Program-made: the position numbers and the translations under genes
The notes under the pieces: model-generated
Seen by the model: the letters and a program-made list of their open reading frames with translations, nothing else
Databases searched by the model: none
What the model was told of the DNA's origin: nothing
Part shown: positions 30,465 through 62,767 of the stretch, piece by piece
Numbering within the stretch: the first letter of the stretch is position 1
Layout: every line of letters starts with the position of its first letter
Source of the DNA: a virus
Reading direction: 5' to 3' (one strand)
Length of the DNA: 64,000 bases
IMG/VR virus record: IMGVR_UViG_3300026521_000343
Location: 1-64,000 of that record

Positions 30465-30596
30465 TCAAAACGTAATTTCGTCTAAGTTTACATCAATCTC
30501 AGGCACTTGATTATGGGATGGTCTCTCTTGCTTCGGTTGGTTTGATTGCCCGTTGTTTTGTTGTTGTGGCGGTGGCGTTGGTTGCCCTTGTGCATT
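30465..30596 (-). pseudogene. Detached C-terminal tail of SSB
   Basis: Directly in frame after the SSB stop (TAA) the codons continue for 43 residues: NAQGQPTPPPQQQNNG...VPEIDVNLDEITF, then TGA. This Gln/Pro-rich linker with an acidic hydrophobic tip is the normal end of an SSB, used to bind partner proteins. It has no start codon or ribosome binding site of its own, so it is either lost by a nonsense mutation (for example CAA to TAA) or added by readthrough. Confidence 0.75.
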
Positions 30597-31019
30597 TTAA
30601 TATTCATAAGTCGGCTGCGGTCTTTGCTGCTGTTGTTGATAGCTTTGTGCTTGCCCTTGAGAAGTAGCATTGTAGCCACCACCTTGATTGTTATCACCTT
30701 TTGAGTCTAGCATTTGCATTGTCTCTACAATAACAGAGTGTTTTGATCTTTTTTGTCCATTTTGGTCAACCCATTGTTCAAAATTTAATCTTCCCTCAAC
30801 AAGGATCTTACTTCCTTTTCTAAGGTATTGGTTTGCAACTTCGGCACTTCTTCCAAAAAAAGTAATATCAACGAAACATACTTCCTCTTTTTTCTCACCA
30901 TTGCTGGTAAATTTACGGCTTGTAGCAATTGCACTTTTTGCAATGCCCGTTCCGCTTTGAGAGTATTTTAACTCTACGTCCCTCGTCATATTCCCTACTA
31001 AAATTATTTTATTAAACAT
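30597..31019 (-). CDS. ssb: Single-stranded DNA-binding protein, truncated tail
   Basis: 140 residues. The OB fold is intact (MFNKIILVGNMTRDVELKYS, VDITFFGRSAEVANQYLRKGSKILVEGRL, to about residue 108), followed by a Gln-rich linker ending QPTYEY. The acidic tip lies after the stop codon, in frame, so the protein should bind ssDNA but not recruit partners through the tip unless the stop is read through. Last gene of the P2 leftward recombination operon with ERF, Gp157-like and NinB; its start overlaps the stop of the preceding gene. Confidence 0.9.
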   Translation of the reverse strand: MFNKIILVGNMTRDVELKYSQSGTGIAKSAIATSRKFTSNGEKKEEVCFVDITFFGRSAEVANQYLRKGSKILVEGRLNFEQWVDQNGQKRSKHSVIVETMQMLDSKGDNNQGGGYNATSQGQAQSYQQQQQRPQPTYEY

Positions 31020-35642: not shown

Positions 35643-35844
35643 AGAGAAGTTGGAAGAGTTGAAACGAGATCACGACATAGAAATCAGAATGAGAACTGAT
35701 TTTGAGTTTGCACTTGAAACAATATCGGAGAAACACAACATCACAGCGGATGATATTTCAAATTTTAAAGATACTATTACGGAATTAAAAGAGTATTGGA
35801 ACGACATTAGTTGTGATGAGGTTTTTGAAGCTGTTTTGTCGTAG
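35632..35844 (+). CDS. Hypothetical acidic protein, 70 aa
   Basis: 70 residues, acidic and helical (EELKRDHDIEIRMRTDFEFALETISEKHNITADDIS). Last gene before a promoter and structured leader. No family recognised. Confidence 0.5.
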   Translation: MQNKEKLEELKRDHDIEIRMRTDFEFALETISEKHNITADDISNFKDTITELKEYWNDISCDEVFEAVLS

Positions 35845-35872
35845 CAAAGTTTTTAATTAAGCTTTGTTTTGG

Positions 35873-35878
35873 TATAAT
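35873..35878 (+). promoter_or_regulatory. Promoter -10 of replication genes
   Basis: TATAAT preceded by TTTTGG (extended -10), no clear -35. Predicted start near 35885, about seven bases before the first stem of the pseudoknot-like leader. It should drive the DnaB-N, organiser and helicase genes. Confidence 0.55.
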
Positions 35879-35891
35879 TACAGCATACAAA

Positions 35892-35964
35892 ATTCAATAA
35901 ATGCAAGTTCATAACTTAGCGGTCTCGCTTGCATTTATTGAGTCTTGAAGTGAAGAGACCGCTA
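35892..35964 (+). ncRNA. Pseudoknot-like leader RNA 1
   Basis: Stem 1 pairs 35892-35907 with 35928-35943 (16 pairs, core CAATAAATGCAAG/CTTGCATTTATTG). Its loop holds TAGCGGTCTC (35917-35926), which is exactly complementary to GAGACCGCTA downstream (35955-35964). The stems interleave, so they form an H-type pseudoknot or compete. TAGCGGT recurs at 36005-36011, next to the ribosome binding site of the following gene, giving a possible alternative partner. Confidence 0.6.
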
Positions 35965-36027
35965 TCCTTCACATATAAAACAATCAAACTCTAAAATTAA
36001 AATCTAGCGGTAACTAAAGGTTACATA

Positions 36028-36396
36028 ATGGAAAATAAAATATACAAGGCTTCTGCTACATACGACATAGAAAAATCTATAATAGTATCAGTAATAGAAA
36101 ATAGCTTTATTGGTAACGATAATAGAATAGTTGATGTTTCTCTTAATAGCTCTTATTTTAACGATAGTTTTCATAAGTTGATAGTCAATGCCATAAATAG
36201 ATTAAAAGAGCTTGGAGAGCCTATAGACTCAGATTTTATACGACTTAAGTTTATAGAGGTTAAAAAATGGAATACTGATTATGATAATAAATTGATTGAA
36301 ATTATGTATCATAATCCAATAGGTACACTTGATCTGTTTAATAGCTATTATTCAAAACTTAAGAAACTAAATAACAGCAAGGTGGCAATGATATGA
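36028..36396 (+). CDS. Stand-alone DnaB N-terminal-like domain protein
   Basis: 122 residues. YDIEKSIIVSVIENSF, YFNDSFHKLIVNAINRLKELGEPIDSDFIRLKF and YHNPIGTLDLFNSYYSKLKKLN parallel the N-terminal domain of the P1 helicase (for example LSSIIFEP, FYLPSHSHIYTAV, IPIDEEFIKREL, NPIANIKAYIEEV). The ATPase part is encoded two genes later. The DnaB N domain binds primase and stabilises the hexamer ring, so the pair may work as a split helicase. Overlaps the next gene by four bases. Confidence 0.6.
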   Translation: MENKIYKASATYDIEKSIIVSVIENSFIGNDNRIVDVSLNSSYFNDSFHKLIVNAINRLKELGEPIDSDFIRLKFIEVKKWNTDYDNKLIEIMYHNPIGTLDLFNSYYSKLKKLNNSKVAMI

Positions 36397-37052
36397 AAAA
36401 AGCATTTAATTTTTATGCTTCTTATGATGAAGTATTTCAGGAACTTGATTTAAATCAAAAAGGAATAATGATAAATGCTATCTTAGACGTTCAGTTTTTA
36501 AGAAAACATATAGATGATATATCATTCAAAGATAAGATACTTTCTATAGTATGGAAAGGTATGAAGCACAGTATTTTAAAACAGATAGATGGATATTGTA
36601 GAGCAAATAAAACACCCTATAATAGGGAGCTTTTTGCCCCTAAGGCAGACTTTCAACCTAGCCCTAAGGCAGACTTTCAACCTAGCCCCAAGCAAGTACA
36701 AGTACAAGTACAAGAGGAAGAACAAGAGCCTATTGTCCAAACTAAAAGTTTAGACGCTAGTTTTAAAATTGCAGAGTATTTATTAAATAACATCTTAAAG
36801 TTAAATACATCTTTTAAGAGACCTAACCTAAATACATGGGCTAAAGATATTGACAAAGCTATAAGAATTGACAATAGAACAGAAGAACAACTAAAATATT
36901 GTATTGACTGGATATATTCACATGAAGGAAGCTTTTGGCAAAAAAATATCTTAAGTGGGAAAAAACTAAGAGAAAAGTTTGATACAATAAATATGCAAAT
37001 GATTACAAAAGATAATAGTCAAACATCAGGGAACATAATATGCAACTGGTAG
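36393..37052 (+). CDS. Replisome organiser / helicase-loader-like protein
   Basis: 219 residues. The N-terminus (KKAFNFYASYDEVFQELDLNQKGIMINAI...SIVWKGMK) looks like DUF6291. A repetitive linker (PKADFQPS twice, then QVQVQVQ) leads to a C-terminal domain (RPNLNTWAKDIDKAIRIDNRTEEQLKYCIDWIYSHEGSFWQKNILSGKKLREKFD) typical of phage replisome organisers. It should bind the origin and load the helicase. Mid-gene repeats may be origin iterons. Confidence 0.65.
   Translation: MKKAFNFYASYDEVFQELDLNQKGIMINAILDVQFLRKHIDDISFKDKILSIVWKGMKHSILKQIDGYCRANKTPYNRELFAPKADFQPSPKADFQPSPKQVQVQVQEEEQEPIVQTKSLDASFKIAEYLLNNILKLNTSFKRPNLNTWAKDIDKAIRIDNRTEEQLKYCIDWIYSHEGSFWQKNILSGKKLREKFDTINMQMITKDNSQTSGNIICNW
36638..36714 (+). 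repeat. Tandem repeats inside replisome organiser gene
   Basis: A 24-base unit (starting CCCTAAGGCAGACTTTCAAC) is present twice in tandem at 36638-36661 and 36662-36685, followed by CAAGTA three times at 36693-36710. In frame they encode PKADFQPS repeats and QV repeats. Possible replication origin, by analogy with lambda O and the similar P1 gene; simple tandem expansion in a linker is the alternative. Confidence 0.45.
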
Positions 37053-38020
37053 ATAAATTTGAAGAGTTAGCAAAAGAAATAAGAGAAATTACTCTTGCAG
37101 TAGATAGTGCAACTAAACAAGAAAATTGGGATCAAGTAACAGTATTAAAAAGAGAACTATACACAAAGAAAATAGAACAAATAGATGAACTTGAGAGTGA
37201 AAATGCTTTAGCCTCAACACTTACAGCAAAGCAATTAAGAGGCGATGTTGAGGCAAGACCACATATCCCTAGATATGAAACAGGGATAGGAGCACTTGAC
37301 GAAAAGTTAAAAGGTGGAATTGAATCTGGTACATTTATTCAGCTAGCTGGCGAAAGTTTTGCAGGAAAAACACACTTAACATTAGAGATATTATCAAACA
37401 TTTCTAATGCGAATAAAGTTTTGTTTTTTAACTTTGAAATGGGTGATACTAGAATTTCAAATAGACTATACAAGTTGCTAACAACAGAAAAGCAATGGAA
37501 TAATTTTCTAATAAATTCAAAAGCACGAAAGATAAATGATATTATAAAGGAGATAAAAAGTCGAGCAAGAGATGGCATCAGATTTTTTGCAATTGACTCT
37601 AAAATGAAAATTGAAGTACCTAGTGAAAATGATGCTTATAAAGCTATAAATGAAATATCAAAACAGTTGTCTAAAGTTGCACAACAAGAAGAGATAATTA
37701 TTTTCTTGATTAATCAAATGAATGAAGAAGATCAAAAAAATAATAGACTGGCATTTAAAGGAAGTGGAGATCAGATGTACGACACAGATATAGCCTTGTT
37801 TTATATGGTAAAAAAAGAAAAGAATGTAAACCCTGAACAATGGAAGCGAACTTTAGTTTGTAGAAAAAACAGGCAAGATGAAATATTATTTAGTGTCGAT
37901 TTACATTTAGACCATACAGGCAAAACAGTAGGAGATGGTGTTGCATATTCGTATGAAAATATAAAGCAGCCAGAAGTTACAGAGTACAATCAAAACAATA
38001 TCTCAATGAGTGTACTTTAG
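37040..38020 (+). CDS. Replicative helicase ATPase (DnaB C-terminal type)
   Basis: 326 residues. An N-terminal coiled coil (about 1-60) replaces the DnaB N domain. The RecA-like core has GIGALDEKLKGGIESGTFIQLAGESFAGKTHLTL (Walker A about 107-114), KVLFFNFEMGD, IRFFAIDS (Walker B) and IIIFLINQMNEED, as in DnaB. The N domain is encoded separately at 36028. It overlaps the organiser gene by 13 bases. Unwinds the phage replication fork. Confidence 0.75.
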   Translation: MQLVDKFEELAKEIREITLAVDSATKQENWDQVTVLKRELYTKKIEQIDELESENALASTLTAKQLRGDVEARPHIPRYETGIGALDEKLKGGIESGTFIQLAGESFAGKTHLTLEILSNISNANKVLFFNFEMGDTRISNRLYKLLTTEKQWNNFLINSKARKINDIIKEIKSRARDGIRFFAIDSKMKIEVPSENDAYKAINEISKQLSKVAQQEEIIIFLINQMNEEDQKNNRLAFKGSGDQMYDTDIALFYMVKKEKNVNPEQWKRTLVCRKNRQDEILFSVDLHLDHTGKTVGDGVAYSYENIKQPEVTEYNQNNISMSVL

Positions 38021-38054
38021 TATAAAAACAAGAAATATTTAACTTTATCTTTGA

Positions 38055-38060
38055 TACAAT
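38055..38060 (+). promoter_or_regulatory. Promoter -10 upstream of second structured leader
   Basis: TACAAT preceded by TTTGA. Predicted start near 38067, about five bases before the first stem of leader 2, the same relation as at 35873-35892. Confidence 0.45.
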
Positions 38061-38071
38061 ACTTATGTAGA

Positions 38072-38140
38072 AAGTTTATGCGAGGAGTCTATCTACACGC
38101 TCCCCAGCACTAGACTCTTCACATAAATTTAGTCTGGGGA
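38072..38140 (+). ncRNA. Pseudoknot-like leader RNA 2, covers RBS
   Basis: Stem 1 pairs 38072-38091 with 38111-38130 (19 pairs with one C/A mismatch; core GAGTCTA/TAGACTC and AAGTTTATG/CATAAATTT). Its 19-nt loop holds TCCCCAG (38101-38107), complementary to CTGGGGA (38134-38140). The latter contains the ribosome binding site of the ATG at 38149, so stem 2 would block translation. Same topology as leader 1. Confidence 0.6.
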
Positions 38141-38148
38141 TGCTACAC

Positions 38149-38796
38149 ATGAAAAACATATTATTCAACACAGAAATGACAAAAGCTATATTAGACGGTA
38201 AAAAAACTCAAACAAGAAGAGTTGCAAAAGTCTATGATGTAGATCCATATTATGTAAAAGACAATATAGATGAAGTTATAAAAAAGCACTCCAAGTATCA
38301 AAAAGGTGATATTCTTTGGGTAAGAGAACCTGCAAAGGTTATCGACTATATAGAATCAAATATTACAATGAAAGTTGAGTATGTTGATGGAGAAACTAAA
38401 ATAATTGATATACCAGAAAGATTTTTAGATGAGAATGGATATATAAAAGCTTCTTGGATTAAAAATATGAAAGGCATTCCAAACGGATGTATAAAGGAGA
38501 TGGCTCGTATCTTTTTAAAGATTACAGATGTTCGTGTCGAGAGATTGCAAGATATTACTTATCAAGATATTTTATACGAGGGAAAAAATGATCCATATGC
38601 GGATGTTTATGGCACAGGATGGTTGGAAAATAAAGCAACTTTAATATCCCCACAAGATAGTGAGTTTAAGCAAATAAGTGATTGGATTATAATGTGGTGG
38701 ATAAATCTGTGGAACAAAACATCACCAAGAAGTTATAAATGGGATGATAATCCTTATGTATTTGTTTATGAATTTGAAAGAGTAAATAATGACTAA
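38149..38796 (+). CDS. ASCH-domain-like phage protein
   Basis: 215 residues from ATG 38149 (MKNILFNTEMTKAILDGKKTQTRRV), a start matching phage proteins of the ASCH/PUA-like type; GDILWVREPAKV, EMARIFLKITDVRVERLQDITYQDILYEG and WINLWNKTSPRSYKWDDNPYVFVYEFERV complete the pattern. Such proteins may bind RNA or modified bases; role in phages unknown. ATG 38140 is an alternative. A structured leader with its own promoter precedes it. Confidence 0.65.
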   Translation: MKNILFNTEMTKAILDGKKTQTRRVAKVYDVDPYYVKDNIDEVIKKHSKYQKGDILWVREPAKVIDYIESNITMKVEYVDGETKIIDIPERFLDENGYIKASWIKNMKGIPNGCIKEMARIFLKITDVRVERLQDITYQDILYEGKNDPYADVYGTGWLENKATLISPQDSEFKQISDWIIMWWINLWNKTSPRSYKWDDNPYVFVYEFERVNND

Positions 38797-60962: not shown

Positions 60963-62767
60963 GTAATTTTAATTTTGCATTTAACTCACAGAAAGGTCGT
61001 GAGGCTGTTATTAATTCTACGATAGTTAAAAGTGTTGAAGCACTTGAGAATATAGCTTTAACAGCTAAAGATGGACAAAAGTGCTACTTAGATGATGGAG
61101 GTCGTAGCGGTAACTTTACTATGCGTTCAGCACGAAGTAGTGAAAATGATGGGGGGACTATCTTCAATGGGATGGAGCGTGATGATGTTGTTTTTAAAAG
61201 TGTAAAATGGTTTGGTGCAAAAGTTGATAGTAATACTAATGACACTAACGTTTTGCAAACATTAATAGATTCTCAAAATCAAGAATGGCTTACAAATGGT
61301 GCTGAATACAAAGCACTTCCTATCTATGTACCTAGTGGCGAGTGTGTTATTTCTTCACTATACATTAAGGGGGGTACTAATTTAGTGTGTGATGGAGTCT
61401 TTAAACCTGCTGACGATATTTCACCCATGGTTTATATGGCAGGTTCTAACATAAACATAAATAAATTACACTTATACGGAAATTTAAGAAGTACATATGA
61501 AGGAACACCTTTTTGTATTAATACAGCAGACACAACTACTTCTGATATATTAGACACAGACCATTGGAAACAGATTTCATATGTGAACATTGGAGAACTC
61601 TATATTAATGGAGTTCAAGGGAAAAGCGAAGCTGGTTTTAAGGTAAGTTCAGACGTTGGTGTAAGCTGGTGGGAAATTGATAAACTAATTATTCGAGACT
61701 GTACTAAAGGTGTGGATATTTCAGTTACTAATGGAGGCTATTTCAACAGTGCTAAAATTAAAGGAGAGATACATCATTGTGTTAAGTCTATAAACTTAAC
61801 AACCGACGATACATCAGAAATTAGCTCAAATGTATTTGACTTTCATACACAGCCTTTGAATACTACTAGTGCAAGTGGAATTTCTTGTAATAGTGAGCGT
61901 GTTCATTATAATAAATTCTTAGGGCGAACTTGGGATTGGCAAACAAATTATAGTTATAGTATCTATGATATAGGACAGTATAACTCATATGATAATAACT
62001 TAGTAACGTTAGAAAAATATGGGAAGGTATTATTTGGCAGATATTCAAGACCGATACTTGAAGCTAATACTATGCCATCATATCAAAATTTATATCAATG
62101 GAATACACTATCTCATAATGGGATTGGTTTTCAAGATAATTTATTAGCAAATGCTGGCAAAACTAAATCAGGTGTAGTGATAACTACTAATAGCCCTAAT
62201 CATCACTATTCAATTCCGTATTTGTTTGAACAGCAATTTCATCCTAGTTACAATACGTATCTTGATTTCCCTACTGATGGAACGCCTCTCACTTTAGAAA
62301 TTGAATTCCCTGAAGTGCAAACAATTTATACAGTGGGTATTGGACTATTATACTTAACAAGTTCATGTACTGATTGTAAAATAGAGTTAGACCCAGATGG
62401 AAATGGGTATACTAATACTTTTCTTGATGTTACTGGGAACATAACACAAGAATTTATAGCTACTCGTGAAAACTCAGCAGGTTATTTATGTAAAAAAATG
62501 AGAATTACTTTTGATAACTTCGTGGATAAAAGTGACCCATTAAATATTGTACCAACTTCTGAGGATAACTTATCATTAAAATCATTAGCTGTTTTTGGGA
62601 TAGGAAAAAGACAAGCATTCGCATCAATGTGGGATAATAAATTCTTAGGACTTAAAGGAGTAGCTTCAAATGAAGTTCCTGATAATTCATTTTTTCTTGA
62701 CACAGATGACTCTACGCTCAAGTTCAAAACTGATGATGGTACTGTTAAGACAGTATCGTTAGCATAG
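60959..62767 (+). CDS. Tail spike, beta-helix type
   Basis: 602 residues. FKSVKWFGAKVDSNTNDTNVLQTLIDSQ ... ALPIYVPSGECVISSLYIKGGTNLVCDG (about 80-155) is the start of a pectate-lyase-like beta helix, followed by rungs (INKLHLYGNL, ISYVNIGELYINGV, INGGYFNSAKIKGEIHHC-type). The C-terminus (NSFFLDTDDSTLKFKTDDGTVKTVSLA) is a common phage tip motif. Not homologous to the P1 spike beyond the fold, so host-surface targets likely differ. Confidence 0.68.
   Translation: MSNFNFAFNSQKGREAVINSTIVKSVEALENIALTAKDGQKCYLDDGGRSGNFTMRSARSSENDGGTIFNGMERDDVVFKSVKWFGAKVDSNTNDTNVLQTLIDSQNQEWLTNGAEYKALPIYVPSGECVISSLYIKGGTNLVCDGVFKPADDISPMVYMAGSNININKLHLYGNLRSTYEGTPFCINTADTTTSDILDTDHWKQISYVNIGELYINGVQGKSEAGFKVSSDVGVSWWEIDKLIIRDCTKGVDISVTNGGYFNSAKIKGEIHHCVKSINLTTDDTSEISSNVFDFHTQPLNTTSASGISCNSERVHYNKFLGRTWDWQTNYSYSIYDIGQYNSYDNNLVTLEKYGKVLFGRYSRPILEANTMPSYQNLYQWNTLSHNGIGFQDNLLANAGKTKSGVVITTNSPNHHYSIPYLFEQQFHPSYNTYLDFPTDGTPLTLEIEFPEVQTIYTVGIGLLYLTSSCTDCKIELDPDGNGYTNTFLDVTGNITQEFIATRENSAGYLCKKMRITFDNFVDKSDPLNIVPTSEDNLSLKSLAVFGIGKRQAFASMWDNKFLGLKGVASNEVPDNSFFLDTDDSTLKFKTDDGTVKTVSLA

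Follow-up and report, generated by a model that had tools for sequence, protein, structure and literature searches.

Interleaved-Stem Leaders in Phages Related to Sulfurimonas Phage SNW-1: An Apparently Undescribed Family of Putative RNA Switches

Introduction

The window, as the whole stretch of 64,000 nucleotides analysed here is called, is part of a 69,264-bp virus record. Sulfurimonas phage SNW-1 is its nearest named relative in a DNA search, and a Helicobacteraceae MAG holds one relative of its helicase. In the initial annotation, two leaders at predicted transcript starts were described in which the loop of a long stem is exactly complementary to a strand just downstream. The locus thus raises the question of whether such leaders are chance foldings, members of a known RNA family or a family of their own, and of what they might do at the ribosome-binding sites (RBS) of the genes that follow.

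Results and Discussion

The Two Leaders and Their Genes

Both leaders lie on the plus strand. The sequence upstream of leader 1 contains a promoter -10 box TATAAT at 35873-35878, and a purpose-written topology scan placed the 5' strand of stem 1 (A) at 35888-35908, the loop strand B, TAGCGGTCTC, at 35917-35926 and the 3' strand of stem 1 (A') at 35927-35947. Over 20 positions stem 1 has 18 Watson-Crick pairs, one G-U and one A-C. The loop strand is exactly complementary to the downstream strand B', GAGACCGCTA, at 35955-35964. As an alternative to B, strand B' could pair with TAGCGGT at 36005-36011 (B2, assigned from pairing energy), beside the RBS; directly after it comes the Shine-Dalgarno sequence AAAGG (36016-36020), held within a small hairpin, GTAAC-TAAAG-GTTAC, of the predicted fold (36010-36024, plus strand). 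The recurrence of TAGCGGT as an RBS-side partner, as first annotated, therefore stands, and the same layout recurs in other phages. The gene under leader 1 (36028-36396, plus strand) encodes a DnaB N-terminal domain (Pfam PF00772, 7.6e-5).

The helicase of the window is split over 36028-38020 into this gene, at 36028, and a gene for the DnaB C-terminal ATPase, at 37040, with a DnaD/RepO-like gene (36393) between them; N-domain and C-domain DnaB matches are likewise separate in L002, L003 and L018. A near-palindrome, GCAAAG...CTTTG(C), at 35843-35866 overlaps the region 5' of the leader 1 -10 box and, judged from its sequence, is likely a repressor operator. It is also present in L017 upstream of 2066, where everything 3' of the promoter differs.

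Leader 2 follows a -10 box TACAAT, read from the sequence, at 38055-38060. Scan and covariation agree on strand A at 38072-38091, loop strand B, TCCCCAG, at 38101-38107 and strand A' at 38111-38130, and strand B', CTGGGGA, at 38134-38140 is backed by two-sided changes. Stem 1 comprises 17 Watson-Crick pairs, two G-U and one A-C, and TCCCCAG pairs with CTGGGGA, which contains the Shine-Dalgarno sequence, as had been annotated; this layout, too, recurs in other phages. The gene under leader 2 (38149-38796, plus strand) is ASCH/DUF3850-like (PHROG 874, function unknown). Its start was taken as the ATG at 38149, 8 nt beyond the end of B'. The ATG at 38140 was set aside, since GGGGAGA stands at this place in the near-identical L017 copy. 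In that copy (L017 4822-4964) leader 2 is nearly unchanged, and the ASCH-like gene is represented by its first 22 codons only, followed by another reading frame.

Topology Scan of the Window and Related Phages

The scanner searched for the order A-B-A'-B', with stem 1 formed by A:A', stem 2 by B:B' and B in the loop of stem 1, and scored candidates with stacking energies. The top two interleaved-stem sites of the window were leader 1 (-49.1) and leader 2 (-41.2); the next site scored -33.6, and the best of 100 dinucleotide shuffles of the window -40.9. In 435.6 kb of 11 related phages, 20 sites scored -40 or better versus a shuffle mean of 0.08, two of the 20 being a leader's mirror image on the opposite strand, and none of the 20 was located inside a same-strand ORF of at least 100 aa.

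Replication-operon loci were retrieved by helicase homology. The topology was found 5' of the replication operon, with unrelated letters, in L002, L006, L010, L011, L023, L024, L033 and L034; L008 and L018 also carry it at the replication operon, in a less clear placement. Other copies precede an HNH-like gene (L004), a PAPS-reductase-like gene (L098), antirepressor-like genes (L106, L123, L141) and others, these names coming from a reading of N-terminal sequences, without family search. Some phages carry two or more leader copies. The annotated view that the topology is conserved rather than copied, and that such leaders at transcript starts form a family, is borne out by this recurrence with different sequences.

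Among six control phages (NrS-4, lambda, Lrm1, Bacillus 055SW001 and two Helicobacter phages), five matches scored -40 or lower and none was convincingly placed as a leader; hence, on this limited sampling, the family seems confined to a phage group related to Campylobacterota viruses. The GC-richer L025 and L141 may have other hosts. Matches at prophage-like dnaB loci of host genomes (L070-L089) were rejected, being GC-rich background or not located before a gene, and a search of 397 host-phylum genomes for the RepO-like protein gave one weak match. A near-perfect interleaved repeat in L114 (10581-10639), scoring -37.8 on either strand and located 25 nt 5' of an ORF, is a leader candidate at most.

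Conservation of Shape with Changing Letters

In the alignment of leader 2 with its L017 copy and the L004 leader, 96% of cells pair and each helix contains three two-sided changes; none of 500 shuffles gave covariation as good, the test comprising three sequences only. The leaders of L006, L033, L034 and L106 constitute a subfamily with the loop AAGCACC(T/C)... and the B' side ...(A/G/T)AAGCTT, in which stem 2 looks bipartite around a conserved internal loop and changes, for example, from TGTAGC/GCTACA to AGTCCG/CGGACT. A lack of compensatory changes in homologues would have spoken against the annotated idea; such changes were found in both helices, as in a conserved structured RNA. At the level of aligned sequences, these data demonstrate the leader pairings and their conservation by compensatory change.

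The cleanest series is provided by SNW-1, whose leader is located on the minus strand at 30727-30803 of OP810509, together with L140 and L141, whose DnaB proteins share 72% and 67% identity, respectively, with that of SNW-1. A strong stem 1 and a stem 2 of 8-13 bp are present in each of the three leaders, at the same place and in the same topology, with identity no higher than that of shuffled sequences (44 of 88 columns identical between SNW-1 and L140, 42 expected from shuffles). The gap between leader and dnaB holds a short, conserved ORF (43-48 codons) in all three, and 117 of 185 positions are kept in the stretch adjoining the leader, which is largely this ORF. The SNW-1 copy of the ORF (OP810509 about 30590-30725, minus strand) is absent from the annotation of that record. 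SNW-1 is a temperate phage of Sulfurimonas indica, and the leader is thus testable in a cultured system.

These comparisons bear on the possibility of a metabolite riboswitch or protein-binding leader, in which a ligand or a phage or host protein would stabilise the fold. Such a role would suit a 5' structure that is stable, lies near an RBS and can switch, and a protein that reads shape would have no need of conserved letters. However, a conserved unpaired core is not seen across the leaders, the genes downstream are diverse, a covariance model of leader 2 (R1) recovers near copies only and Rfam gave no match. This explanation is therefore considered improbable; a small-molecule riboswitch, in particular, is unlikely because the sequence core is not conserved, the orthologous leaders being at shuffled identity where an aptamer core would be expected. 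From the annotated proposal of a protein- or ligand-responsive RNA switch family, the ligand-responsive part is accordingly not retained, and the shared topology, the placement at transcript starts and the links to the RBS are what the sequence comparison bears out.

Two Layouts at the Ribosome-Binding Site

The distance from B' to the ATG has two peaks, mainly at 3-8 and 44-68 nt. In class A (leader 2, L004, L010, L022, L098, L099, L127, L025 and SNW-1) the Shine-Dalgarno sequence lies inside or abuts B', and 3-8 nt separate the end of B' from the start codon. Class B leaders have 44-68 nt between B' and the start codon, and in most members B' is complementary to a B2 segment beside the RBS of its own gene: TAGCGGT in leader 1, TTGCCG in L002, GGTCG in L023, TGTCAAG in L034, TGCTAGG (with G-U) in L033 and TTCCTG in L106. 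When B' strands were compared with all RBS regions, the own-pair mean was -7.6 kcal/mol, swapped pairs averaged -4.5, and not one permutation in 100,000 was as good; the own pair of leader 1 (-11.6) was the best among 15 RBS regions. A convincing B2 was missing in four of the 15 leaders with class B spacing (L011, L124, L126 and L008). B2 continues into a small hairpin holding the Shine-Dalgarno sequence in leader 1, L023 and L141, and the letters of this hairpin differ among them (GTATC-TAAAG-GATAC in L023, GCATC-ACGGA-GATGC in L141).

A TATAAT-like box is enriched 5' of stem 1 (p 8e-7, 26 leaders), a value which, like the other p-values given here, is not fully independent, since many leaders were picked by the scanner and relatives occur among them. 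In helices from a Watson-Crick-only search, 48 positions were G-U versus 14 A-C (p 2e-5), the leaders having been selected in the first place by a scan permitting G-U. By these sequence signals the leader is an RNA element read in the direction of the gene.

The same data weigh on a mechanism like that of ColIb-P9, whose repZ translation needs a 5' pseudoknot that is blocked by an antisense RNA (PMC9977716, PMC8383071). Here an antisense RNA across the leader would bind loop B and stop a pseudoknot needed by the downstream gene. A hairpin loop paired in a pseudoknot within a replication-gene leader does follow the ColIb-P9 logic, and UUGGCG, a motif named for ColIb-P9, is present in the L018, L024 and L141 loops. 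On the other hand, a box search on the opposite strand downstream of B' gave no significant enrichment of an antisense -10 box (p 0.075), the G-U bias favours a function of the sense strand, and the class A Shine-Dalgarno sequence sits within the pseudoknot itself. Antisense control of this type is thus regarded as very improbable.

Geometry and Proposed Mechanism

The spacer between stem 1 and B' in leader 2 is 3 nt only, so the full 20-bp stem 1 and the full stem 2 should not coexist; by a rough length rule, about six outer AU-rich pairs must open to form the pseudoknot. The A'-B' spacer is likewise too short for both full stems in 16 of the 26 leaders, and in short-spacer leaders our rough length rule requires the opening of 1-10 outer pairs. 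Stem 1 has a GC content of 27% in its outer half and 51% in its inner half (p 6e-5), and its length decreases as the spacer lengthens (rho -0.52, p 0.006). This geometry, as read from the sequences, fits a hairpin partly opening into a pseudoknot, that is, a two-state element and not a static fold.

A stem of about 12-26 bp near the predicted 5' end, which many leaders possess, might also merely protect the mRNA or mark a site of RNase III cleavage. Such a role would leave unexplained both the conserved B:B' pairing and the match of B' to its own RBS, and it is hardly credible as the whole function.

The leaders are probably cis-acting, 5'-terminal translational switches in which the hairpin/pseudoknot competes with pairing at the ribosome site, and the best reading of the sequences is that the targets would be replication, antirepressor-like and other genes. 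The long A:A' hairpin could form first during RNA synthesis; loop strand B would then pair with B' to give the pseudoknot, with weak outer pairs of the stem opening in leaders with a short spacer. In class A, as in leader 2, the pseudoknot would cover the Shine-Dalgarno sequence and block translation, and the plain hairpin would leave it free. In class B, as in leader 1, B':B2 pairing beside the small RBS hairpin would shut the RBS, which the pseudoknot would release by capturing B' away from B2. The output would presumably be translation, with the balance set by some factor or by folding kinetics. Whether the ON and OFF states have been assigned to the pseudoknot the right way round is an even call; similar genes follow class A and class B leaders, although under this model the pseudoknot would act in opposite senses in the two, which counts against the model.

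Comparison with Known RNAs

In an Rfam search at gathering scores, no leader-family match was obtained in the window or in L141, L123, L140, L002 and L023. C4 gave no match on leader 1 at E<=10, and the leaders do not qualify as members of the Rfam C4 antisense RNA family; low-threshold Rfam matches on leader 1 were rejected as implausible. Model R1 found essentially the own copies of leader 2 in 0.6 Mb and nothing in the 397 host-phylum genomes, an empty answer that carries little weight, and scanning DNA for patterns of the leader 2 and AAGCACCTGC subfamilies yielded already-known contigs only. The RNA family is defined by its pairing architecture and not by its letters: a covariance model of one leader misses the others. 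Since neither Rfam nor the literature searched yielded a match or a description, the regulatory RNA family is apparently undescribed, and it looks to be a new group of RNA gene switches.

The closest mechanism is that of the ColIb-P9 repZ pseudoknot, membership there or with P1 c4 not being claimed. As in the ColIb-P9 type, a hairpin loop can pair with a strand lying further 3', close to the RBS: in ColIb-P9 (IncI alpha) repZ, IncB and IncL/M, the loop of a long hairpin pairs near the RBS of the replication gene and the pseudoknot controls translation, and UUGGCG is shared by some class B loops. Unlike those plasmid leaders, the present ones occur in phages and also on non-replication genes, are almost unconserved in sequence, have B' directly after the stem and often containing the Shine-Dalgarno sequence, and gave no detected antisense promoter.

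The E. coli rpsO (S15) and T4 gene 32 leaders also form a pseudoknot at or near the RBS, that of rpsO being balanced with a hairpin form; both bind the product of their own gene, and the genes after the present leaders are diverse. In P4 CI RNA immunity, one segment of the replication-operon leader is complementary to two others in the same leader, as here, and CI acts via premature transcription termination; in contrast, the second target here adjoins the RBS, and a terminator was not identified. In P1/P7 c4, leader segments are complementary to the RBS region further down the same operon, as they are here. Both are operon leaders with an antirepressor gene possible downstream, but the present ones lack an Rfam family match and most copies precede replication genes.

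P1 c4 RNA is an operon-mate of the antirepressor genes; it blocks expression of ant and is required for full repression of these genes (PMC8198154). By analogy, the leaders might act also or mainly in trans: a short RNA processed from the leader of a resident prophage would use B' or loop B to bind the RBS segment in the mRNA of a relative, as do c4 RNA of P1/P7 and CI RNA of P4, and the changing code would set immunity groups. Consistent with such action are the antirepressor-like genes downstream of the leaders in L106, L123 and L141, the letters of the leader changing far faster than the adjoining stretch, and the comparison of the window with L017, in which promoter and upstream genes are common and leader 1 and the following replication genes differ. 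At spacers of 0-6 nt, moreover, intermolecular B:B' pairing would escape the steric problem. Against it, the window contains no evident second copy of a B/B' word as a target, and fast divergence can also be explained as drift under a constraint on pairing only. Action in trans is thus rather unlikely. The sole 10-base match to a B/B' word in the window, TAGCGGTAAC at 61105, was rejected as a trans target, as it lies inside a 602-codon ORF.

An unlikely and more far-reaching combination is that the leaders are RNA identity tags, whose private three-segment codes would control translation of replication or antirepressor genes and, in trans from a prophage, give superinfection immunity, the codes diversifying quickly on a fixed architecture. 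If so, the family would be nearly invisible to sequence or covariance search. Separately from the leaders, L123 contains at 599-635 a match to the Rfam abiF RNA family (42.4 bits).
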